Made by a program: the position numbers and the translations under genes. DNA of 48,439 nucleotides from a virus: IMG/VR virus record IMGVR_UViG_3300030098_003452, positions 1 to 48,439 of that record. One strand, given 5' to 3'. The notes beneath the pieces were generated by a model that saw only the letters and a list, made by a program, of their open reading frames with translations, had not been told where the DNA came from and made no database searches. The first letter of the stretch is position 1. Each line of letters starts with the position of its first letter. Positions 3,648 through 48,121 of the stretch are shown here, piece after piece.

Positions 3648-4106
3648 ATGGCATTTAAAATGAAAGGAAGTCCTATGAAGAGAAATTTTGGTGTAGGAGC
3701 TTCGTCACCAGCAAAACAATTATTAGAACCAAACTATGAATCGGAGATGTATAGTGAGAAAATTGGACCAGCTAATGAACCTGGAGTAACGCATAAGCTT
3801 AGATTAGACGCCGATAAAGTCCCTCTTGGCGACGAGTATGATATAGAGTATAAGAACAAACGTGATCTTTATGAAGAATCTAGAGATTACGAAAAAAATC
3901 TACCTATTGACGATAAAATTATTCCAGGATCTTGGAGTCATAGTGGTAATGTAGAGGAAACTAATAAACCTGTAGAGGAAACGAATAAACCTCTTCCAAA
4001 ACACTCAGTGGACGATCAAGGAAACCCAACCATGTTGACTTATACTCGGGAATATGATCCACGAACTAAAACTTGGAAAAAAGTACCTGTATATCAGCGG
4101 TACTAA
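3648..4106 (+). CDS. Tagged protein (152 aa), FKMKGSPMKRNFG
   Basis: The start MAFKMKGSPMKRNFGVG carries the full tag followed by a second SP motif (ASSPAKQ). Unlike the other tagged proteins, the body is acidic to neutral. A tandem seven-residue repeat, VEETNKP twice, lies near residue 105. The C-terminal part (TREYDPRTKTWKKVPVYQRY) is basic and aromatic. It is the last gene before groEL, 41 bp upstream, and probably ends the first tagged operon. No enzyme domain is recognised. Confidence 0.7.
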   Translation: MAFKMKGSPMKRNFGVGASSPAKQLLEPNYESEMYSEKIGPANEPGVTHKLRLDADKVPLGDEYDIEYKNKRDLYEESRDYEKNLPIDDKIIPGSWSHSGNVEETNKPVEETNKPLPKHSVDDQGNPTMLTYTREYDPRTKTWKKVPVYQRY

Positions 4107-4126
4107 ACTTGACTAAGTAGAAACAC

Positions 4127-4146
4127 AATTAAATTAAATTAAATTA
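4127..4146 (+). repeat. AATTA x4 tandem repeat before groEL
   Basis: Four perfect copies of AATTA end one base before the groEL ATG at 4148. An unstructured AT-rich leader of this kind takes the place of a Shine-Dalgarno sequence and is typical of Bacteroidota-type translation starts. Copy number could affect expression, but that is inference. Confidence 0.5.
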
Positions 4147-4147
4147 A

Positions 4148-5716
4148 ATGGAATACAATCAACCTAGCGAGATTGTCAAAGACTTGAACTTTGGTGATTC
4201 CGCAAAACAAAGAATTATAAAAGGCGTAGATAAACTTGCAAAAGCAGTTAAGTCTACTCTAGGAGCTTCTGGTAAATGTGTTATTTACGAAGACGCTCGA
4301 GGAAAACCGGTAATTACAAAAGACGGTGTAACCGTGGCAGAAAGCGTAGTCTTATATGATCCGGTTGAAAACATGGGCGCTACTTTAATAAAGGAAGCGG
4401 CTCGAAACACAGTGAAAGAAGCAGGTGATGGAACTACTACAGCCACTGTCCTTGCTGAAGCACTTATAAAGAATGTTAACCACGAAGAACATCATGGTAC
4501 ATCTATTAGAGAAATAAAAGAAGGAATACAATCCGGATTAAAAAAAGTTAATAAGTATTTAAACGATATATCTATAAACGTAGAAGGAGACATGTTAAAA
4601 GATGTTAGTTCTATATCTTGTAATAATGATAAGGTTTTAGGTAATATTATATCAGAAGCTTATGAAAAAGTAGGGAAAGACGGTGTTGTTTTAATGGAGC
4701 AATCTGAAACAGAAAACACTTATGTAGAAATTGTGGACGGCGTACAAATAGAGTCTGGACTTACATCACCTCATTTTGTAACCGATAACGAAAAACAAAG
4801 AGCAATTCTTGAAAATCCACTAATCTTAATCGTTGCGTCGGAAATCCCAAACGTTAGAAAAATACAAAAAGTATTAGAATTTGTTATTAAAAATAACAAG
4901 TCATTATTAATTGTTGCACCAGTATCTCAACAAGTTAAATCAGCTTTGTTGATGAACAGAGTAAAAGGTAATATAAAAGTTAATATAGTTGATTTACCTG
5001 GTTTTGGACCAACTAAACGTGATACCATAGAAGACTTAGCTATTTTAACAGGGGCAACGGTTATTAATGAAGAGCTTGGAGATGATCTAGATGGTATATC
5101 TTTAGATGTGCTTGGAGAAGCTGAAAAAGCGGTTACTGAAGATAAAAACACTATTATAACAACTTTAGAAACAACTGAAGAGGTTGGAGAAAGAATAAAA
5201 GAAGTTCAAAAACTTATTAAGAAAGAAAAGAACGAATATTTAAAAAGAAGAATAGAACAAAGACTAGCTATGTTATCTGGTTCTGTAGGAGTTATAAAGG
5301 TTGGTGCTGATTCTAAAGTAGAATTAAAAGAAAAGAAAGATAGAGTTGAGGATGCTATATACGCTACAAAAGCGGCCCTGAAAGAAGGTATCGTCCCAGG
5401 TGGTGGTATTGCTTTACTCAACGCATCTCAAACTATAGAAACTGAAAATATAGGAGAGAAAATATTATTAAAAGCAATAAGATCACCATTTGAAACTATA
5501 CTAGATAACGCTGGTTTTACACAAACAGCGCCTAGACCAGAAAAAGGATTAGGTGTTGATGTTGTTACTGGAGAAAGTGTTGATATGATAAAAAATGGTA
5601 TTATTGATCCAGTTCTTGTAACAAAAACTGCTCTTAAAAATGCTGTATCTGTAGTTTCGACTATAATATCAGCAGATTGTGTAATTTCAAATATCAGAGT
5701 AGATGAAGGCAGTTAA
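4148..5716 (+). CDS. groEL: Phage-encoded chaperonin GroEL (522 aa)
   Basis: This is a full-length group I chaperonin subunit that forms ATP-driven folding rings. It shows the ATP-site motif GDGTTT at residues 93-98, the hinge/apical motif LPGFGPTKRDTIEDLAILTG, and RVEDAIYATKAALKEGIVPGGG, which contains the Asp equivalent to catalytic D398 of E. coli. In the apical substrate-binding loop, E. coli GYLSPYF becomes GLTSPHF. The protein is shorter than bacterial GroEL (about 545 aa) and lacks the Gly-Gly-Met tail, ending NIRVDEGS. Its 3' end overlaps groES by 14 bp. The likely job is folding phage capsid or tail proteins. Confidence 0.95.
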   Translation: MEYNQPSEIVKDLNFGDSAKQRIIKGVDKLAKAVKSTLGASGKCVIYEDARGKPVITKDGVTVAESVVLYDPVENMGATLIKEAARNTVKEAGDGTTTATVLAEALIKNVNHEEHHGTSIREIKEGIQSGLKKVNKYLNDISINVEGDMLKDVSSISCNNDKVLGNIISEAYEKVGKDGVVLMEQSETENTYVEIVDGVQIESGLTSPHFVTDNEKQRAILENPLILIVASEIPNVRKIQKVLEFVIKNNKSLLIVAPVSQQVKSALLMNRVKGNIKVNIVDLPGFGPTKRDTIEDLAILTGATVINEELGDDLDGISLDVLGEAEKAVTEDKNTIITTLETTEEVGERIKEVQKLIKKEKNEYLKRRIEQRLAMLSGSVGVIKVGADSKVELKEKKDRVEDAIYATKAALKEGIVPGGGIALLNASQTIETENIGEKILLKAIRSPFETILDNAGFTQTAPRPEKGLGVDVVTGESVDMIKNGIIDPVLVTKTALKNAVSVVSTIISADCVISNIRVDEGS

Positions 5717-11393: not shown

Positions 11394-11625
11394 GGCTGTT
11401 GATGAATTAATTAAAGTTGCAGAAGAAAAAATTATTACTAATACAGAAGATGATGTGTCTGCTGATAGATTAAAAAACGCTGCCGCTACTAAAAAGCTAG
11501 CTATATTTGATGCGTTTGAAATACTTAACAGAATCCAAGAAGAAGAAAATATTATTGAAGGTAAAGAACCCGAGGAAAAAAAAGAAAGAGTATTCAAAGG
11601 ATTTGCTGAAGGAAGATCAAAATGA
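11347..11625 (+). CDS. Putative terminase small subunit (92 aa)
   Basis: An acidic, helical protein that starts inside the end of the previous gene (47-bp overlap) and overlaps the large terminase by 4 bp (ATGA). Size, helical character (IIRAGRKAVDELIKVAEEK, LKNAAATKKLAIFDAFEILNRI) and position directly before the large terminase suit a small terminase subunit, which recognises viral DNA. No helix-turn-helix is evident to me, so the call rests on context. Confidence 0.5.
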   Translation: MNTKETKKNIIRAGRKAVDELIKVAEEKIITNTEDDVSADRLKNAAATKKLAIFDAFEILNRIQEEENIIEGKEPEEKKERVFKGFAEGRSK

Positions 11626-13841
11626 AATACGAGCAAAGTTTAGTTAAAGTTGTTGAACCTATAAAAAGAACAACTATCACGAGAATGAATCGTGGTAAAA
11701 AGTGGAAACACGGTTATAATAAAGAACATGATTTAATTGTACTATCTCAAAATGGAATTATAGGTGAAATTATAGAAATACAAAATTTAATTATAGCGCT
11801 ACCAAAACCACCTAAAGAAGTGTATACGCATCCAGAGAATAAGTGGGTTAAACAGGAATACCCTAAAGAGCTCCAAAGGATTAAAAATATATTCGATTGG
11901 AGAGGTTATCCGGAAAATAATAAAGAAAAATGGTACGATTATATAGACGAAGAATTTAGAAGAAGAGAAGAAGGATTCTGGTTTATGAACAATGGTAAAC
12001 CAACCTGGATAACCGGTACGCACTATATGTATTTACAATGGAGTAAGATTGATGTTGGTGCTCCAGATTATAGAGAGGCAAATAGATTGTTTTATATATT
12101 TTGGGAGGCTTGTAAGGCAGATAAAAGATGCTACGGTATGTGTTACCTTAAAAACAGACGTTCTGGATTTTCTTTTATGTCGTCAGCTGAAACAGTTAAT
12201 TTAGCTACAATATCAAGTGATAGTAGATATGGTATATTATCAAAAACAGGTGCAGATGCGAAAAAAATGTTTACAGATAAAGTCGTTCCTATATCAATTA
12301 ATTATCCGTTCTTTTTTAAACCTATACAAGATGGAATGGATCGTCCAAAATCCGAGTTGGCTTATCGTGTTCCCGCTAGTAAGTTTACGAGAAAAAAGAT
12401 TACAGCGAATGAACAACTCGAAGATATCAAAGGACTAGACACAACTATTGATTGGAAAAATACAGGTGATAATAGTTATGATGGGGAAAAACTTAATCTA
12501 CTAGTACATGATGAAAGTGGTAAATGGGAGAGACCTGATAATATATTAAACAACTGGAGAGTTACAAAAACATGCTTACGATTAGGTAGTAAAATAGTTG
12601 GTAAGTGTATGATGGGCTCTACTTCAAACGCATTAGATAAAGGTGGAGACAATTTTAAAAAACTATACGACGCATCAGATGTCACACAGAGAAATAGAAA
12701 TGGTCAGACAAAATCTGGTTTATACTCTTTGTTTATCCCAATGGAATGGAACTACGAAGGATTTATTGACGAGTACGGACTTCCAGTATTTGACACTCCT
12801 GACACAGATGTCGTTGACCCAGACGGTGAATTAATAGATATAGGCATAGTAGAGCATTGGGAAAACGAAGTTGAAGGATTAAAATCTGATCATGATGCTT
12901 TAAATGAGTTTTACCGTCAGTTTCCAAGAACAACTGAACACGCGTTTAGAGATGAAGCAAAAAATAGTATATTTAACTTAGTCAAGATATACGAGCAAAT
13001 AGATTATAACGAAGGTATTAATAGTTCTAATGTAACTAATAGAGGTAATTTTCAGTGGGTTAATGGAGTGAAAGATACACAAGTAATATTTTATCCAGAC
13101 CCAAAAGGTAGATTTAATATTAGTTGGGTACCACCTCAGCAACTTCAAAATAGAATTGTTTTAAAAAACGGTGTAAAATATCCCGCAAATGAACATATGG
13201 GGGCATTTGGTTGTGACTCGTATGATATATCTGGAACAGTTGATGGGAGAGGATCAAACGGAGCTTTACACGGGTTAACAAAGTTTAGCATGGAAGATTG
13301 TCCACCTAATCACTTCTTTTTAGAGTATATTGCTAGACCACAAACTGCTGAGATATTTTTTGAAGACGTTTTAATGTCGTTAGTGTTTTATGGAATGCCC
13401 ATACTTGCTGAAAATAATAAACCTAGACTTTTATATTATTTAAGAAGAAGAGGATATAGGGGTTATTCAATGAATAGACCAGATAAAATATGGAACAAAT
13501 TATCTGTTGCAGAAAAAGAAATAGGTGGAATACCTAACTCTAGTGAAGATATAAAACAAGCGCACGCAGCCGCTATTGAAATGTATATACAACAATACGT
13601 TGGACATTTAGGAGATGGAAAGTACGGTAATATATATTTCAATAAAACATTAAATGATTGGGGTAGGTTTGACATAACAAAAAGAACAAAATACGACGCA
13701 ACTATTAGTTCTGGATTAGCAATAATGGCTTGTAATAGACATTTGTATATTCCAAACCCAAAAATAGAGAAACCAAAATTAAACATAAATATCGCTAAAT
13801 ATTCAAATAAAGGTGGTATGTCTAAATTAATTAAAAAATAA
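11622..13841 (+). CDS. terL: Terminase large subunit (739 aa)
   Basis: This is the packaging motor and nuclease. The ATPase part has KNRRSGFSF at residues 177-185 in the Walker A position, LNLLVHDES at 291-299 as Walker B with a catalytic acid, and MGSTSNALDKGGDNF at about 331-345 as the coupling motif. The C-terminal nuclease has CDSYD at 531-535, a metal-binding Asp of the RNase H-like fold. The Walker A is divergent, as in other marine phage terminases. It is longer than many terminases (about 500-600 aa). The portal gene follows 1 bp downstream. Confidence 0.9.
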   Translation: MKYEQSLVKVVEPIKRTTITRMNRGKKWKHGYNKEHDLIVLSQNGIIGEIIEIQNLIIALPKPPKEVYTHPENKWVKQEYPKELQRIKNIFDWRGYPENNKEKWYDYIDEEFRRREEGFWFMNNGKPTWITGTHYMYLQWSKIDVGAPDYREANRLFYIFWEACKADKRCYGMCYLKNRRSGFSFMSSAETVNLATISSDSRYGILSKTGADAKKMFTDKVVPISINYPFFFKPIQDGMDRPKSELAYRVPASKFTRKKITANEQLEDIKGLDTTIDWKNTGDNSYDGEKLNLLVHDESGKWERPDNILNNWRVTKTCLRLGSKIVGKCMMGSTSNALDKGGDNFKKLYDASDVTQRNRNGQTKSGLYSLFIPMEWNYEGFIDEYGLPVFDTPDTDVVDPDGELIDIGIVEHWENEVEGLKSDHDALNEFYRQFPRTTEHAFRDEAKNSIFNLVKIYEQIDYNEGINSSNVTNRGNFQWVNGVKDTQVIFYPDPKGRFNISWVPPQQLQNRIVLKNGVKYPANEHMGAFGCDSYDISGTVDGRGSNGALHGLTKFSMEDCPPNHFFLEYIARPQTAEIFFEDVLMSLVFYGMPILAENNKPRLLYYLRRRGYRGYSMNRPDKIWNKLSVAEKEIGGIPNSSEDIKQAHAAAIEMYIQQYVGHLGDGKYGNIYFNKTLNDWGRFDITKRTKYDATISSGLAIMACNRHLYIPNPKIEKPKLNINIAKYSNKGGMSKLIKK

Positions 13842-17517: not shown

Positions 17518-19044
17518 ATGGCAATTACAAACGGAGATAATTTGAATTCAATACCTGCTGCACAAAGACAGGTGTTGTCTACAAATTATATTGATTTTAC
17601 ATCTAGCGATACGGCTGGATGGGCACAACAATATCTGCCTGACTTAATGGAAAAAGAAGCTGAAGTATTTGGTAACAGAACTATTTCTGGTTTCTTAGAG
17701 CAAGTTGGAGCAGAGGAGTCTATGACTTCAGACCAAGTAGTTTGGTCAGAACAAGGTAGATTACATCTATCTTATATAGCGACTATGTCAGATGTATCTA
17801 ATAACTATATTGATATTGTATCTGATATTGATGGTAACAGCTTGGCTGATGATGGAGCTGGTGGAAACTTTTATGTTGACAATTCATCTGCTAATCAGCA
17901 AGATCACGGTATTAGAGTAAATGATATGCTTTTAATAGCGTCTGCATCTGCTAATGTTACTACAAGAGTAATAGTATCTGCTATCGTAGCTGATGGTTCG
18001 GCTAATGCTGGTAGATTAACTGTACTACCTTACAATTCAGGAGCTGGTTCTTCTGCGATTGCATTATCTAACCTTGGATTTGTAACTACAGCTAGTGACC
18101 TTAGAGTATTAGTATATGGTTCTGAATACAAAAAAGGTGACAACGGTAGAACAGGTGCTGTTTCTCCAACGTTTAAGTCTTTTACTAATAAACCTATCAT
18201 TATGAAAGATAAGTATGAGATCTCAGGATCTGATGCATCAGCAATTGGTTGGGTTGAAGTTTCTGGTGAAGACGGACAAAACGGTTATATGTGGTACTTA
18301 AAAGCAGAAGGTGATACTCGTCAAAGATTTACTGATTACATGGAAATGTCTATGATTGAATCTATAAAAGGTGTTGCCGCTAACACTACTGCTGACACGG
18401 CTGTTTTACAGGCTAACTTTGGTACAGAAGGTTTATTTGCTGCTATCGAAGATAGAGGTAACACAACAACTGGTGTGACTGGTGTTAACGCTGCTACTGA
18501 TTTAGCTGAATTCGATGCGATTTTAGCTGAATTTGACAAACAAGGAGCTATTGAAGAAAACATGATGTTCGTAAATAGAGCTACTGCTTTAGCAATGGAT
18601 GATATGCTTGCTTCTATGAACTCTTATGGAGCTGGTGGTACTTCTTACGGTGTATTTGATAACGAAGAAGACATGGCGCTTAACTTAGGTTTCTCAGGAT
18701 TTAGAAGAGGTTCTTATGACTTTTATAAATCCGACTGGAAATATTTAAATGATTTCTCTACTAGAGGAGCTATCAACTCTGCTGACGACGTTAACGGCGT
18801 TAGAGGTGTTATAATCCCTGCTGGAGTATCTTCAGTATATGACCAAAACTTAGGTAAGAACTTAAAACGTCCTTTCTTACATGTTAGATATAGAGCTTCA
18901 CAAACAGACGACAGACGATTCAAAACTTGGACGACTGGTTCTGTTGGAGCAACTACTTCTGACTTAGATGCGATGGAAATCCACTATCTATCTGAAAGAT
19001 GTTTAGTAGTTCAAGGTGCTAACAACTTCATGATAATGAAGTAA
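17518..19044 (+). CDS. Major capsid protein (508 aa)
   Basis: This is the large structural protein immediately after the scaffold and before a strong terminator, the usual place for the major capsid gene. It lacks Cys and has an even mixed composition. The N-terminal NYIDFTSSDTAGWAQQYLPDLMEKEAEVFGNR and the C-terminal HYLSERCLVVQGANNFMIMK are typical of marine phage capsid proteins. The HK97 fold is expected from family knowledge, not seen directly. A hairpin terminator follows the stop by 17 bp, so capsid mRNA can be made in excess. Confidence 0.85.
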   Translation: MAITNGDNLNSIPAAQRQVLSTNYIDFTSSDTAGWAQQYLPDLMEKEAEVFGNRTISGFLEQVGAEESMTSDQVVWSEQGRLHLSYIATMSDVSNNYIDIVSDIDGNSLADDGAGGNFYVDNSSANQQDHGIRVNDMLLIASASANVTTRVIVSAIVADGSANAGRLTVLPYNSGAGSSAIALSNLGFVTTASDLRVLVYGSEYKKGDNGRTGAVSPTFKSFTNKPIIMKDKYEISGSDASAIGWVEVSGEDGQNGYMWYLKAEGDTRQRFTDYMEMSMIESIKGVAANTTADTAVLQANFGTEGLFAAIEDRGNTTTGVTGVNAATDLAEFDAILAEFDKQGAIEENMMFVNRATALAMDDMLASMNSYGAGGTSYGVFDNEEDMALNLGFSGFRRGSYDFYKSDWKYLNDFSTRGAINSADDVNGVRGVIIPAGVSSVYDQNLGKNLKRPFLHVRYRASQTDDRRFKTWTTGSVGATTSDLDAMEIHYLSERCLVVQGANNFMIMK

Positions 19045-19061
19045 GAACACTTATTTAAAGA

Positions 19062-19095
19062 GTCGAGGCTTCGGCCTCGGCCCTTTATTTTTATT
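19062..19095 (+). terminator. Rho-independent terminator after the capsid gene
   Basis: GTCGAGGC (19062-19069), TTCG loop, GCCTCGGC (19074-19081) form an 8-bp stem with one T-G wobble and a UUCG tetraloop, followed by cctttatttttatt. The GC-rich stem stands out against the AT-rich surroundings. This is a strong terminator candidate between the capsid gene and the next gene. Confidence 0.85.
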
Positions 19096-19116
19096 AATTT
19101 TATTATATATTATATT

Positions 19117-43337: not shown

Positions 43338-43622
43338 ATGGCTAAAGAATTAAATGAAGATACAGGTTTTAATGTAAGCATAAAAACATTGGGAGGTATA
43401 GCTGCTCTTATAGCAGCGATGGTTGGTATGTGGTATAGTTTACAGGCTGAAATTGCCGAAGCAAAAGAACTGCCAGTTATAGAAATACCTGATCCTGAAG
43501 TTACACGAATGGAGTTTGATATGAAAGATCAAATGATTAGACAAACTATCATGACTACACAAGAAGATGTTAAAGAAATAAAAGAGTCAATAGAAAAAAT
43601 AGAAGACAAACTTTACGAATAA
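43338..43622 (+). CDS. Small membrane protein with coiled coil (94 aa), lysis-type
   Basis: A single hydrophobic helix at about residues 17-36 (KTLGGIAALIAAMVGMWYSL) is followed by a helical, acidic tail with coiled-coil-like spacing (IKESIEKIEDKLYE). The layout fits a small holin-like or inner-membrane spanin protein. It is the first gene of the right-end cluster, 50 bp after the giant protein. A separate 3-TM holin lies at 7764, so this could be a second lysis protein or an unrelated membrane protein. Confidence 0.6.
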   Translation: MAKELNEDTGFNVSIKTLGGIAALIAAMVGMWYSLQAEIAEAKELPVIEIPDPEVTRMEFDMKDQMIRQTIMTTQEDVKEIKESIEKIEDKLYE

Positions 43623-43634
43623 AAAACAAATTAA

Positions 43635-43994
43635 ATGAAATTTACTGCAAAACGGAAGATATTTACAGTGTATATGTTAATAATTATCTTCACTATATTA
43701 GCTAACTCTGCTTTTGGACAAGTAACCGTTAAACATTTTAATGCTGAATGGAACAAATCTAATGGAGTAGAATGGTTTATGGATTTGAAAGATTGCAACA
43801 CTAAAAGCTATGTTGATATAGGTAAAAATCCAGAAGCACAGAAAAAATATAAAATAGCCGTTGTACCTACAATTATAATATTTAAAGACGGTGAAGAAGT
43901 TTCTAGATTTCAAGCTGATTTAAGTTTTAAAATGTTAGCCACAAAAGAAGAAGTACAAGAAGAAATAGACAATCAATTAATGAGTGATTTTTAA
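43635..43994 (+). CDS. Exported thioredoxin-fold protein lacking CxxC (119 aa)
   Basis: A signal peptide (hydrophobic residues 11-23, end ANSAFGQ) is followed by the thioredoxin pattern VTVKHFNAEW...KIAVVPTIIIFKDGEEVSRF, with the cis-proline at residue 78. The site where the active CxxC would be is NKSNGVEW (about 40-47), with no Cys; one Cys is at 54. Thus it is a redox-inactive relative, perhaps a binding or folding protein. The product is expected in the periplasm. It lies in the cluster of exported proteins. Confidence 0.7.
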   Translation: MKFTAKRKIFTVYMLIIIFTILANSAFGQVTVKHFNAEWNKSNGVEWFMDLKDCNTKSYVDIGKNPEAQKKYKIAVVPTIIIFKDGEEVSRFQADLSFKMLATKEEVQEEIDNQLMSDF

Positions 43995-43995
43995 C

Positions 43996-44181
43996 ATGGT
44001 ATATAAAATGAGCGGTTGGAGTGGGTACCAAAACTCACCATTAGATAAAAAAGAAAAATTTAAACCACATATGATGTATAGCAAAACCGGCGAAAGTAAA
44101 ATAGCTAACACGTATGAAGAACATTTAAATTTGCAAGAAAAAGGTTGGGGTCATACAAAACCTAAAAAACAAAGTAAATGA
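43996..44181 (+). CDS. Small tag-like protein (61 aa)
   Basis: I place the start at ATG 43996, 1 bp after the upstream stop. It begins MVYKMSGWSGYQNSPLDKK, a degenerate form of the tag (VYKMSG..., with SPL nearby) found elsewhere in the window. The rest is Lys-rich and short. The alternative start at 43984 would add MIFN. Its stop overlaps the next gene by 4 bp (ATGA). No other domain is recognised. Confidence 0.55.
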   Translation: MVYKMSGWSGYQNSPLDKKEKFKPHMMYSKTGESKIANTYEEHLNLQEKGWGHTKPKKQSK

Positions 44182-46403
44182 AAAAAATATTTATATTATT
44201 ACTATTACCTATAATAACTTTCGCACAAAAAGAAGTTGTTATACATATCAAAACAGATAACTATCCTAGTGAGACAAAATGGACTTTATATAAAGACGCT
44301 TATCAAGGAAGCATAATAGCTTCAGTTCCTTATGGACATTATACTCAAAGTAACACTATGCATAGAGACACTGTTTATATGGCAGATAGTATTACTGATA
44401 TATCTTGGGTTATATTTGATAGTTATGGAGATGGAATTGTAAACGGTGAGTATTACGTAACTATATGTGGGGATACATTAATTAACTATCCTGTATCTAC
44501 GTTTACAACTGGATTAATACATAATAGAGTTGTGCCACAATGCATGCCCCAACCACCACCATCATCTGGATGTGTTCCAGCTATGGTAAATATTAATTTA
44601 GATCAATATCAAAGTGAAACAACTTGGGATATAAAAGATTCAACAGGTGCTATTATAGCAGCAGGAGGACCTTATACAAACGCTCCTGATTATCAACCAC
44701 AATTTGAACCAGTATGTTTACCCACAGGTAATCTAACTTTTACAATATACGATTCTTATGGAGACGGACTAGCTGGTAGCTTGTGGGGAGGGCAAGACGG
44801 GTCTTACTACCTGATACAATGTGGAGATACCTTAGTGCATGGTACCGTTGCTAACTTTGGGACAGATTCCACTCATACCTTTATATCAGACACCTGCGTT
44901 CCTCCACCACCAGTACCAGGATGTACAGATGAAGATTATGTAGAATATAATCCTTTAGCAACTGTAGATGACTCATCGTGTGTAACTTTAAAGATTTGGG
45001 GTTGTACTGATTCTACAATGTTTAATTATAATCCTATAGCTAACACAATGGATTATATAGATAGTTGTGATTATACACTTATATTACATGATCTTGTAGG
45101 AAATGGTTGGGTTGGTAGTAAATTAGAAATATATCAAGAAGACAAAGATACTAGCGTGTTTTTTATGACACAACCTAGTTTAAATCAACAGTTTTCTATA
45201 AACTTATATGCTCCTGAAGAAGTACAAGCTAAATTTTTTGTTTCTCAACAAGCTCAACACACGGCGTTAGAATGTGGTTTTACTTTAATAAACCCTTATG
45301 GTGATACTGTTATAAGTGTTGTTCCACCGTTTATAGTACCGTTTCAAACATATACAGGTACAACATACTGCGGAAACACATGTATAGAAATAATAGAAGG
45401 TTGTATGGATAGTTTGGCGTTTAATTACAATTCTTTAGCAAATACATCTGAAACTTGTTATTATAGTCCCGGATGTACGTCTCCTGCATATCTAGAGTAT
45501 CATATCGATACATCTAACGCAGTTTATTCGGATTTTAATATACAGGATAGTTGTCAAACTTTAGCTGTGTTTGGATGCACGGATTCAATTGCGTTTAATT
45601 ATGAGCCTGAAGCCAACGTAGATAATGGTGGGTGCGTTCCTGTTATATATGGGTGTATGGAAAGTCTTGCATTTAACTACAACCCATTAGCTAACACTCC
45701 TGATACATGTATAGCCTATCTATACGGGTGTACAGATCCAACTATGTTTAATTATGACTCATTAGCAAATGCTGACGATGGATCATGTGTACCATTTGTG
45801 TACGGTTGTACTGATTCTACTATGTTTAATTTTAATCCTTTGGCAAATGCAGAGTATACTCCTACCAATTGTACTCCTTATATTTATGGTTGTACCGATC
45901 CTTCTATGCTTAACTATAACCCACAAGCTAACACAGAAGATTTTAGCTGTATACCTTATATTTACGGTTGTACTGATAGTACTGCCCTTAACTATGATTC
46001 AACAGCTAATACTGATAATGGTTCGTGTGTGGCTATGGTTGAAGGATGCATGGATCAGTCTGCGTACAACTATGATATTACGGCTAATGTTAATGATTCT
46101 GCTTCTTGCTTATATAGTGCTAATTGTGTCACTGGTCCAGGTAATCCTTACTGGCTTAATGACCCTTGTTACGAATGGGTAATAGAAATAGATGAATATT
46201 GTTGTGAAAATGAATGGGATACAATCTGTCAAGCTACTTACGCTTACTGCGAGGGAACTTGGATAGGACCTTTACCAAAAAGATTTGATAAACAATTACT
46301 AATGGTTACTGATATACTTGGTAGACCAGCAAAACCAGGTAATAATAAAATATTGTTATTTATATATAACGATGGAACAGTAGAAAAAAAATATACGAGA
46401 TGA
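44178..46403 (+). CDS. Secreted repeat protein with type IX sorting-like end (741 aa)
   Basis: A signal peptide (MKKIFILLLLPIITFAQ) starts the protein. Residues 20-240 hold DSYGDG-type domains (for example IFDSYGDGIVNGEYYV and IYDSYGDGLAGSLWGG). Between about 248 and 644 are 11 Cys-bounded repeats of the form GC(T/M)D..FNYNP.AN...C. A YCC...WDTICQ..YAYC motif and a final region ILGRPAKPGNNKILLFIYN DGTVEKKY follow, resembling marine flavobacterial secreted proteins and their type IX sorting ends. It was probably acquired from a host lineage. The role may be surface binding, protection or changing the infected cell surface. Confidence 0.8.
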   Translation: MKKIFILLLLPIITFAQKEVVIHIKTDNYPSETKWTLYKDAYQGSIIASVPYGHYTQSNTMHRDTVYMADSITDISWVIFDSYGDGIVNGEYYVTICGDTLINYPVSTFTTGLIHNRVVPQCMPQPPPSSGCVPAMVNINLDQYQSETTWDIKDSTGAIIAAGGPYTNAPDYQPQFEPVCLPTGNLTFTIYDSYGDGLAGSLWGGQDGSYYLIQCGDTLVHGTVANFGTDSTHTFISDTCVPPPPVPGCTDEDYVEYNPLATVDDSSCVTLKIWGCTDSTMFNYNPIANTMDYIDSCDYTLILHDLVGNGWVGSKLEIYQEDKDTSVFFMTQPSLNQQFSINLYAPEEVQAKFFVSQQAQHTALECGFTLINPYGDTVISVVPPFIVPFQTYTGTTYCGNTCIEIIEGCMDSLAFNYNSLANTSETCYYSPGCTSPAYLEYHIDTSNAVYSDFNIQDSCQTLAVFGCTDSIAFNYEPEANVDNGGCVPVIYGCMESLAFNYNPLANTPDTCIAYLYGCTDPTMFNYDSLANADDGSCVPFVYGCTDSTMFNFNPLANAEYTPTNCTPYIYGCTDPSMLNYNPQANTEDFSCIPYIYGCTDSTALNYDSTANTDNGSCVAMVEGCMDQSAYNYDITANVNDSASCLYSANCVTGPGNPYWLNDPCYEWVIEIDEYCCENEWDTICQATYAYCEGTWIGPLPKRFDKQLLMVTDILGRPAKPGNNKILLFIYNDGTVEKKYTR

Positions 46404-46648
46404 GAAATACACCATTAAAAGCATTTGCGTCACCATTAAAACATGATATGGAAAAAGAACATGCTCATTCGGAAGATGCTAGTAGAAGCTCGAGACCTTA
46501 TATAACAGTTGATGGAGAACACGGAAGCACTATGAATATTGAAAATGTTTCTGGACATTCTTCTACTCAAGGAACTTATAGTGAATTATACCGAAAATCT
46601 CGAGATAAGAAAATAAAAGAAATAAGAGCTAGTCAAAAGAAAAAATGA
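46400..46648 (+). CDS. Small SPLK-motif protein (82 aa)
   Basis: It begins MRNTPLKAFASPLKHDMEKEH, with TPLK and SPLK motifs reminiscent of the tag family's SP(L) motif, and continues Ser/His/Glu/Lys-rich to a basic end (KEIRASQKKK). It overlaps both neighbours by 4 bp (ATGA), so it belongs to the coupled cluster. It has no signal peptide although its neighbours do. The function is unknown. Confidence 0.55.
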   Translation: MRNTPLKAFASPLKHDMEKEHAHSEDASRSSRPYITVDGEHGSTMNIENVSGHSSTQGTYSELYRKSRDKKIKEIRASQKKK

Positions 46649-46857
46649 AAAAATTATTACTAGTATTACTAATAGGTTTAACCTCTTGTATTGTACCACA
46701 ACATATTGAATCCGATAAGTGTTGTGATAAACACACCTATATTCCTACTTATTATCAACCTACAAGAGTTGTTATAATAAAGAAAGATAAACCAATATAT
46801 AAAAGAAATATAAAAGTTAAAATAAATAAACATAGAAAAACTATAAAAAGAAAATGA
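46645..46857 (+). CDS. Small lipoprotein, outer-membrane spanin candidate (70 aa)
   Basis: The N-terminus MKKLLLVLLIGLTSC ends in a lipobox (LTSC), so it is probably a lipoprotein. Two further Cys (DKCCDK) follow, and the C-terminus is strongly basic (KRNIKVKINKHRKTIKRK). Its small size and lipobox are usual for outer-membrane (Rz1-like) spanins of phage lysis systems. It is not next to an inner spanin, though the membrane coiled-coil protein at 43338 is in the same cluster. It is coupled by ATGA overlaps. Confidence 0.6.
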   Translation: MKKLLLVLLIGLTSCIVPQHIESDKCCDKHTYIPTYYQPTRVVIIKKDKPIYKRNIKVKINKHRKTIKRK

Positions 46858-47951
46858 AGAAAATATTAATATTACTCTTATTGCCATTATTTAGTTTTTC
46901 ACAGTTTACTTACAAAGGATACGAATATAATATTGAGAATATTTTTAAAAATCAATTAAAGTTTTCTACTATATATGGAGCTGTTAATGGTGGAAATTCT
47001 ATATCTGATGTTAAAACATTTTCTATTCTTGATGGTTTACAAACTTCAACAATAGAAACTCCATTTGATTATTCTGTTACCATAGGTATTAGAAAGATAG
47101 CTAGATTTGGACATGAAAATAAAGCTCAAACATTTTATGACGGTACAGAATCTAATTATACAGATGCTGCTACTGTAGGTAAAGTACAGGGATTTGAGTA
47201 TTTATTTGAGGTAGATTATGCTAGACAACAAGGTATAGATTATATAGACCAACACCATTTTATTAGATATAGTTCTGATGATAATTGTGATGGGCCTTTA
47301 TGCATAGATCATTTTGCTGCTAAAGTAGAGTATTTAAAAGATGGTTTTGCAGATGTTGAATATTTTGAATTATCAGAAAGATATAGGTATAAAAAAGATA
47401 AAAACTTAGCGTTTAGTATAGGTGCTGTACATAGATTAGCAGAACCGTATGGATACGATCCTTTAGCGGATTGGATGTTGTCAAATGGTAATTTACATTA
47501 CACTTATTTAGCTTTAGAAGAGGGGTATAATGTAGACGTAGCTAATGATATATATATGGATCCTGATGGAAACATTGTTGCTAATAGCGCTGATGTATGG
47601 AAAGAAATTGTTATACCTCAGGTGCTAGCAGATTATACAACCAAAAAAAGAAATGAATTAGAGAGAATCATACAGCACTCTATTGTTATAGGTTTTGATT
47701 ACTATAAATATACCAAAAGCAATTGGTTACACGCTTGGGGAAATATATTACCTTATCATTATAATGATGGTAATGAGTTTTCTTATCATAATTATATAGA
47801 AGACAACCAATGGTATGATTATTCTGGAGGCATTATATTTGGGCAAAAAGTTAGTAAGCAATTAGGATTATTTGCTGAAGGTAAATATAATAAATATTGG
47901 AATAGAGAATGGTATGATTTTAAATTTGGTATTAATTATATTATAAGGTAA
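46854..47951 (+). CDS. Exported outer-membrane barrel-like protein (365 aa)
   Basis: A signal peptide (MKKILILLLLPLFSFSQ) is followed by a mature protein rich in alternating beta segments and aromatic residues, ending FAEGKYNKYWNREWYDFKFGINYIIR, which looks like the last strand of an outer-membrane beta barrel. No catalytic motif is visible. It could alter the host outer membrane, for example to block other phages, or help lysis. The start overlaps the lipoprotein gene by 4 bp, and the end overlaps the next gene as TAATG. Confidence 0.65.
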   Translation: MKKILILLLLPLFSFSQFTYKGYEYNIENIFKNQLKFSTIYGAVNGGNSISDVKTFSILDGLQTSTIETPFDYSVTIGIRKIARFGHENKAQTFYDGTESNYTDAATVGKVQGFEYLFEVDYARQQGIDYIDQHHFIRYSSDDNCDGPLCIDHFAAKVEYLKDGFADVEYFELSERYRYKKDKNLAFSIGAVHRLAEPYGYDPLADWMLSNGNLHYTYLALEEGYNVDVANDIYMDPDGNIVANSADVWKEIVIPQVLADYTTKKRNELERIIQHSIVIGFDYYKYTKSNWLHAWGNILPYHYNDGNEFSYHNYIEDNQWYDYSGGIIFGQKVSKQLGLFAEGKYNKYWNREWYDFKFGINYIIR

Positions 47952-48121
47952 TGAAAATTGGTACTAAAAGACAAGAAAGATTTAAAAAATCAAACACAGG
48001 TTATATACAAAAAAATAATCCATTTCCAGTGACTAGCTGTGGAAGAAGAAGAACGTTAATGATGACAAACAAACCTGTAAAATTATTTATGAAAAATAAA
48101 AATACGAATTATGACATTTAA
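47951..48121 (+). CDS. Small basic protein (56 aa)
   Basis: I translated this frame directly: ATG at 47951 overlapping the upstream stop (TAATG), stop at 48119-48121, 56 residues starting MKIGTKRQERFKKSNTGY. It is Lys/Arg-rich with the motif NNPFPVTSCGRRR. Its last 11 bp overlap the start of the next gene. No domain is recognised. Tight coupling and the basic composition, like that of the tagged genes, support it as real. Confidence 0.5.
   Translation: MKIGTKRQERFKKSNTGYIQKNNPFPVTSCGRRRTLMMTNKPVKLFMKNKNTNYDI

Follow-up and report, generated by a model that had tools for sequence, protein, structure and literature searches.

A conserved cassette of marine flavophages encodes a probable type IX secretion cargo with a short C-terminal sorting end

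Introduction

A phage protein that we hold with good confidence to be a substrate of the host type IX secretion system (T9SS) is encoded at 44178-46403 of the DNA analysed here. This stretch of 48,439 nucleotides, hereafter the window, makes up bases 1-48439 of a 67,289-base IMG/VR record. By means of this protein, referred to below as the cargo, the infected cell probably puts a viral product on or outside its own surface. The cargo closes with a short C-terminal end, and its reading as T9SS cargo is supported by the exchange of this end for a known T9SS domain among phage relatives, by the use of the same end in host genomes, by its in-register similarity to established sorting domains and by its predicted three-strand form. 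Actual export of the cargo, its timing and the cleavage are inferred.

The same reading had been offered in a preliminary description of the DNA, which named the lack of a match to any sorting-domain profile as evidence against it. It is important to note that no such match was found, so the case is carried by the other evidence presented here.

The phage and the setting of the cargo gene

The terminase, the portal and one virion protein of the window have strong PHROGs matches. The terminase is nearest to those of Flavobacteriaceae podoviruses, and the named phages that share it all have hosts belonging to Flavobacterium, Cellulophaga, Tenacibaculum or Maribacter. The features of the window are collected in Table 1.

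Table 1. Features of the window relevant to the cargo gene and its neighbours
Feature	Coordinates	Strand	Basis and remarks
Terminase large subunit	11622..13841	+	phrog_6681, E 2.9e-173; marks phage identity and host group
Giant structural protein, 3522 aa	32719..43287	+	Same position as elemovirus gp18 (synteny); upstream of the cargo gene
94-aa protein, N-terminal TM and coiled-coil-like rest	43338..43622	+	Holin-/i-spanin-like by layout only; 74/80 relatives, 36/36 bait loci
Exported thioredoxin-fold protein, CxxC replaced (WNxxN-like)	43635..43994	+	Pfam Thioredoxin 24.3 bits, cut-off 23.5; 74/80 loci
T9SS-type cargo gene (probable), 741 aa	44178..46403	+	ORF; ATG start overlaps the stop of the upstream ORF
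Sec/SPI signal peptide, residues 1-16	44178..44225	+	Q-rule site, cut between FA and Q (MKKIFILLLLPIITFA followed by Q), from sequence
Beta-sandwich domain 1 with DSYGDG, residues 17-120	44226..44537	+	AF2 pLDDT ~85
Beta-sandwich domain 2 with DSYGDG, residues 131-240	44568..44897	+	AF2 pLDDT ~80
GCTD repeats 1-2	44919..45068	+	Repeat count
Beta-sandwich domain 3, residues 298-400	45069..45377	+	AF2 pLDDT ~83
GC(T/M)D repeats 3-11, residues 408-644	45399..46109	+	Repeat count
C..YCC...WD..C module, residues 650-691	46125..46250	+	Conserved in relatives; lowest pN/pS, 0.17
Short T9SS-type C-terminal sorting end (putative), residues 705-741	46290..46400	+	Predicted strands 707-711, 724-730, 735-740
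Outer-membrane beta-barrel, Q-rule signal peptide	46854..47951	+	AF2 pLDDT 75; KdgM Z 14.5; 67/80 relatives, 36/36 bait loci

The cargo gene follows the giant structural protein, which was detected within the fetched flanks of 41 of 80 relatives; in many contigs that bear the cassette described below, it was not detected inside the fetched flanks. The gene had been assigned beforehand to a phage structural region. It does lie in the late region, but at its 3' edge, in a cassette on the envelope/lysis side and not among head or tail genes.

The window phage encodes several exported proteins. In the rest of the record (L125, whose base 1 is record base 48001), three further short signal-peptide proteins are found on the minus strand at 3805-4203, 13066-13461 and 18842-19108, one of which is barrel-like. 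The protein at L125 18842-19108 has a repeated zinc-like motif, C-GI(S/T)K-G--CK-----YC--H, in common with the last ~65 residues of the 3522-aa protein.

Architecture of the cargo

The elements of the cargo listed in the preliminary description were all located. The signal peptide is of the Q-rule type described for Bacteroidetes (PMC5837995), and two DSYGDG motifs stand at residues 81 and 192. The Cys-bounded GCTD-type repeats, of the form GC(T/M)(D/E/S)...C, number exactly 11, whereas shuffled sequence gave a mean of 0.06 and a maximum of 2. The YCC...WD..CQ motif falls within the module at residues 650-691 (CVTGP...DEYCCENEWDTICQATYAYC), and the DGTVEKK-type C-terminus within residues 705-741 (KQLLMVTDILGRPAKPGNNKILLFIYNDGTVEKKYTR). 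The protein holds 37 Cys in total, with zero in the final 49 residues. Since these features are kept among 120 IMG/VR relatives, with invariant columns in the alignment, they are not a product of chance. The pN/pS values, which are uncorrected and come with synonymous sites near saturation, range from 0.17 to 0.40 across all parts of the cargo, the signal peptide and the end included, and indicate that purifying selection acts on every part. The N-terminal domain is the most variable part between phages.

The whole cargo protein gave no family match in Pfam, NCBIfam or PHROGs, and no catalytic domain was found in it with Pfam and NCBIfam. The best VIA match of sandwich domain 1 is CBM60 (2xfd, Z 8.1, 2.7 A over 89), a suggestive resemblance, at the edge of significance, of the modelled domain to a calcium-dependent carbohydrate-binding module. 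In the AF2 model, the confidently folded sandwiches span residues 17-118, 133-237 and 296-395. With the whole cargo model, Foldseek returned only C2-like and assorted sandwich matches of low TM-score, and the repeat region has no confident AF2 fold (pLDDT mostly <40).

The modules of the cargo are common in extracellular proteins of hosts (86 of 196 genomes), as they would be if the phage had recently captured a host gene that has no function in it. Purifying selection on all parts argues against such a passenger, as does the conservation of the cassette in all 36 loci with full flanks, on podovirus-like as well as T4-like contigs; the reading was already unlikely, and we leave it only the slightest chance.

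The short end and known sorting signals

The profiles recommended in the preliminary description do not recognise the end: the cargo, for which no family came up at E up to 1, matched neither TIGR04183 (threshold >23 bits) nor TIGR04131 (type B), nor did it match NF033708 (type C), and 27 non-redundant short ends matched none of the NCBIfam T9SS models at E up to 10. Searched with the short-end profile, PDB sequences gave no match; among annotated phage records the end was absent at E up to 0.1, and the motif strings had no match in the literature searched. This type of end seems to be missing from the profile libraries.

When short ends were compared by hhalign with type A ends of both hosts and phages, a probability of 72.5% (P 3e-5) was obtained, against 0.5% (P 0.12) for the reversed control, and the alignment registers LLKITDLLGRE with motif B and the final strand with motif E. 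Scored one by one, short ends have a median of 6.4 bits and shuffles one of 0.0, and a score of at least 5 bits is reached by 72% of the former and 1.5% of the latter. The profile comparison is weak when phage type A ends are used alone and clearer once host type A ends are added. At the level of sequence, the short end thus appears weakly similar to type A CTDs, in the proper register.

AF2 models the short end as three strands (Table 1). In Prevotella intermedia, which according to the authors is the only species reported to have both CTD lengths, the short CTDs measure 43-55 aa and undergo cleavage and glycosylation; their three predicted strands equal strands 3, 6 and 7 of long CTDs (PMC11969387). 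The final 22 aa of the HBP35 CTD, comprising motifs D and E, suffice for GFP secretion (PMC10202324). Compared by description, the phage end resembles the P. intermedia short CTDs in its length below 60 aa, in its three predicted strands, in motifs B, D and E, and in the basic residue that follows the glycine of motif B. The motif D glycine (GxY), absolutely conserved in P. intermedia, is unconserved in the end studied here, which has xLFYIY instead; unlike the P. intermedia domains, this end comes from marine Flavobacteriales and phages and is nearly absent from the phylum-wide sample.

Cargo of the TIGR04183/Por_Secre_tail kind likewise has its end at the C-terminus and a Sec signal peptide; a VxIxDLLGR-like motif B and a basic motif E, KKxI(K), are also common to both, and orthologues of the window cargo bear a true TIGR04183 end. 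The short end differs in its length (37-42 aa versus about 72-80), in having three predicted strands versus seven, and in lacking both the PNP motif A and a profile match. We conclude that the short end would work like a short CTD; formally, it stands outside every named profile family.

Exchange of ends among phage relatives

The IMG/VR scan yielded 120 relatives of the cargo, 80 of which were fetched. Where the end is uncut by a contig edge, 55 relatives (window included) carry the short end and 22 a longer type A end, a tally that takes in one split gene and two cut ones in which the end can still be recognised. TIGR04183 was matched by 12 of the 12 type A ends tested, and the long-end profile matches solved CTDs by sequence. 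Both kinds of end sit at the same junction in orthologous proteins. For example, the relatives L034 (type A) and L058 (short) share 95.2% identity across the 643 aa that precede the junction and from there continue into different ends, and the same contrast is seen between L077 and L027 at 89% identity. No other ORF in the fetched relative loci has a short or type A end. In one relative (L036 3784-3960), the end stands in a separate frame from the remaining cargo, owing to a frameshift or an assembly error.

By a crude test, all 72 phage relatives with an intact 5' end have a signal-peptide-like N-terminus, and 65 of them have the Q of the Q-rule site. Together with the presence of a type A T9SS domain in place of the end in 22 relatives, this argues against the cargo being a virion fibre or adhesin that resembles secreted host proteins and whose end serves to form trimers or to attach it to the virion. 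Such a role would suit a late-strand gene beside a giant structural protein, a modular N-terminus that differs among phages as in receptor-binding proteins, and the existence of a cyanophage GCTD-repeat protein that has no signal peptide. However, two neighbours in the cassette are likewise exported proteins, and related cultured elemoviruses make virions without the gene, and we judge a virion part to be distinctly improbable.

The short end in host genomes

When 84,980 genomes were scanned, the short end turned up in 42 places, all of them in Flavobacteriales/Bacteroidetes genomes; the query was consensus-like, the first sequence of the alignment carrying the consensus G in place of N. Nearly all of these ends stand at the very C-terminus of proteins whose N-termini are of the export type, and because some lie on contigs >1 Mb, they are not phage contamination. 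The bearers comprise PHB depolymerases, choice-of-anchor B and J proteins, plastocyanin-like proteins, metalloproteases, a nuclease and others. Twelve short-end genomes hold 2-51 copies each, and these same genomes contain TIGR04183 cargo (12/12), SprA (11/12) and PorV (12/12).

Signal-peptide-like N-termini were found, with a crude detector, in 33 of 38 short-end bearers compared with 73 of the 165 ORFs that served as controls (P 1e-6). Twenty short ends from a single genome were read: every one is C-terminal and 17 of the proteins have a hydrophobic N-terminus. In Flavobacteriales that bear a T9SS, exported proteins repeatedly carry the short end as a C-terminal tag.

The end occurs in 81 of 246 genomes of an order-wide sample, mostly genomes of 0.8-2 Mb, and in 2 of 395 genomes of a phylum-wide sample. 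This restriction to part of an order, and the missing T9SS profile match, would also agree with some other periplasmic or surface anchor, such as a PorV-independent C-terminal tag, with export proceeding by a different last step. But the short end trades places with type A ends, resembles them in register and is predicted to have its three strands arranged like those of proven short CTDs, and we find a separate anchor quite unlikely.

A conserved cassette around the cargo

The thioredoxin-fold protein was used as bait, which avoids selection on the cargo itself. Among the 80 bait loci obtained, about a dozen are contigs already counted among the cargo relatives. Each of the 36 loci with full flanks contains one ORF, and no more, with a sorting end (short in 33 loci, type A in 3), and also the barrel and the TM protein. 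The cassette is found across podovirus-like and T4-like contigs; in one T4-like contig inside a flavobacterial MAG (L169 13588-19185), it has a type A end and stands beside an endolysin.

CxxC is absent from the thioredoxin-fold protein in all 74 relatives read and a WNxxN-like sequence is present instead; the protein is redox-dead yet strongly conserved. The barrel nearly always accompanies the cargo and has a near-invariant C-terminus, EGKYNKYWNREWYDFKFGINYIIR. Structurally, it comes closest to barrels of the KdgM/NanC and autotransporter types, and a chain of the T9SS complex appears first at rank 50. A role as PorP/SprF or as a PorV shuttle was considered and is unsupported, and the barrel has no Pfam/NCBIfam match. 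Between the cargo and barrel genes, a small lipoprotein candidate with an LTSC lipobox (46645-46857) is present in only 3 of 80 relatives.

The make-up of the cassette raises the question of purpose. A TM and coiled-coil protein, an outer-membrane barrel, the endolysin adjoining the T4-like copy and an M15 peptidase 2 kb downstream in the window phage would fit a module for lysis or outer-membrane disruption, whose cargo would have the envelope or cell debris as its target at release. This is compatible with T9SS export and differs in what export is for. We consider it unlikely, as no catalytic domain was found in the cargo and elemoviruses presumably lyse without the cassette.

Proposed mechanism and significance

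The T9SS reading can be laid out as follows. The cargo would be made late in infection along with the neighbouring envelope proteins, a timing that we infer only from the gene position and from the overlap with the upstream late-strand ORF. Its Q-rule signal peptide would take it across the inner membrane via Sec. The short end, with its motif B, D-like strand and motif E in three beta-strands and no PNP motif A, would then be recognised by the translocon SprA and the shuttle PorV of the host, and PorU would probably remove it. The three sandwich domains and the disulfide-rich repeat stalk would stay on, or leave, the infected cell. What the phage gains is a guess. The favoured and best-fitting role is a change to the surface of the infected cell, by surface display or superinfection exclusion; the most likely uses would be receptor masking, leading to such exclusion, or glycan binding.

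More broadly, several marine flavophage lineages may carry a four-protein surface-display module (TM coiled-coil protein, redox-dead exported thioredoxin fold, barrel and T9SS cargo) that commandeers the host T9SS, with type A and short ends exchanged to suit the host and the short end forming a widespread, unnamed class of sorting signal in marine Flavobacteriales. We offer this wider picture tentatively, as one whose chances fall a little short of even.

Use of the T9SS by phages has been reported, in the literature found, for one cryoconite phage; the present family would make it a strategy that many marine phages have conserved. Because the short end is absent from the profile libraries tested and occurs on up to ~50 proteins per genome in small-genome Flavobacteriales, the secretomes of these bacteria are likely to be underestimated. 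In addition, the natural swap of ends between near-identical proteins amounts to a ready experiment on the minimal requirements of a T9SS signal.

Comparison with known systems

Elemoviruses, represented by Flavobacterium phage elemoF, share with the window phage the terminase (46%), the order of the portal and structural genes, and the giant structural protein, but the cultured members are without the cargo cassette. Prochlorococcus phage AG-345-P14 (MH319765; L171 3598-5142) encodes a protein with a few GCTD repeats, 62% identical over 58 aa, that has no signal peptide and no sorting end; the repeats alone therefore prove nothing.

The closest precedent is the cryoconite phage with three T9SS-labelled cargo genes (PMC7468147), which makes phage-borne T9SS cargo known in kind. 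Phage-encoded T9SS sorting domains are common to both cases, as is the proposal of hijacked host secretion or superinfection exclusion. In the cryoconite case, which is that of a single phage, type A domains are attached to variable enzymes, whereas the window cargo belongs to one conserved family with no recognised enzyme domain and mostly short ends, found in a fixed cassette on contigs that number well over 100. Relative to the literature and libraries searched, the conserved cargo family, its cassette and the exchange between short and type A ends are new.
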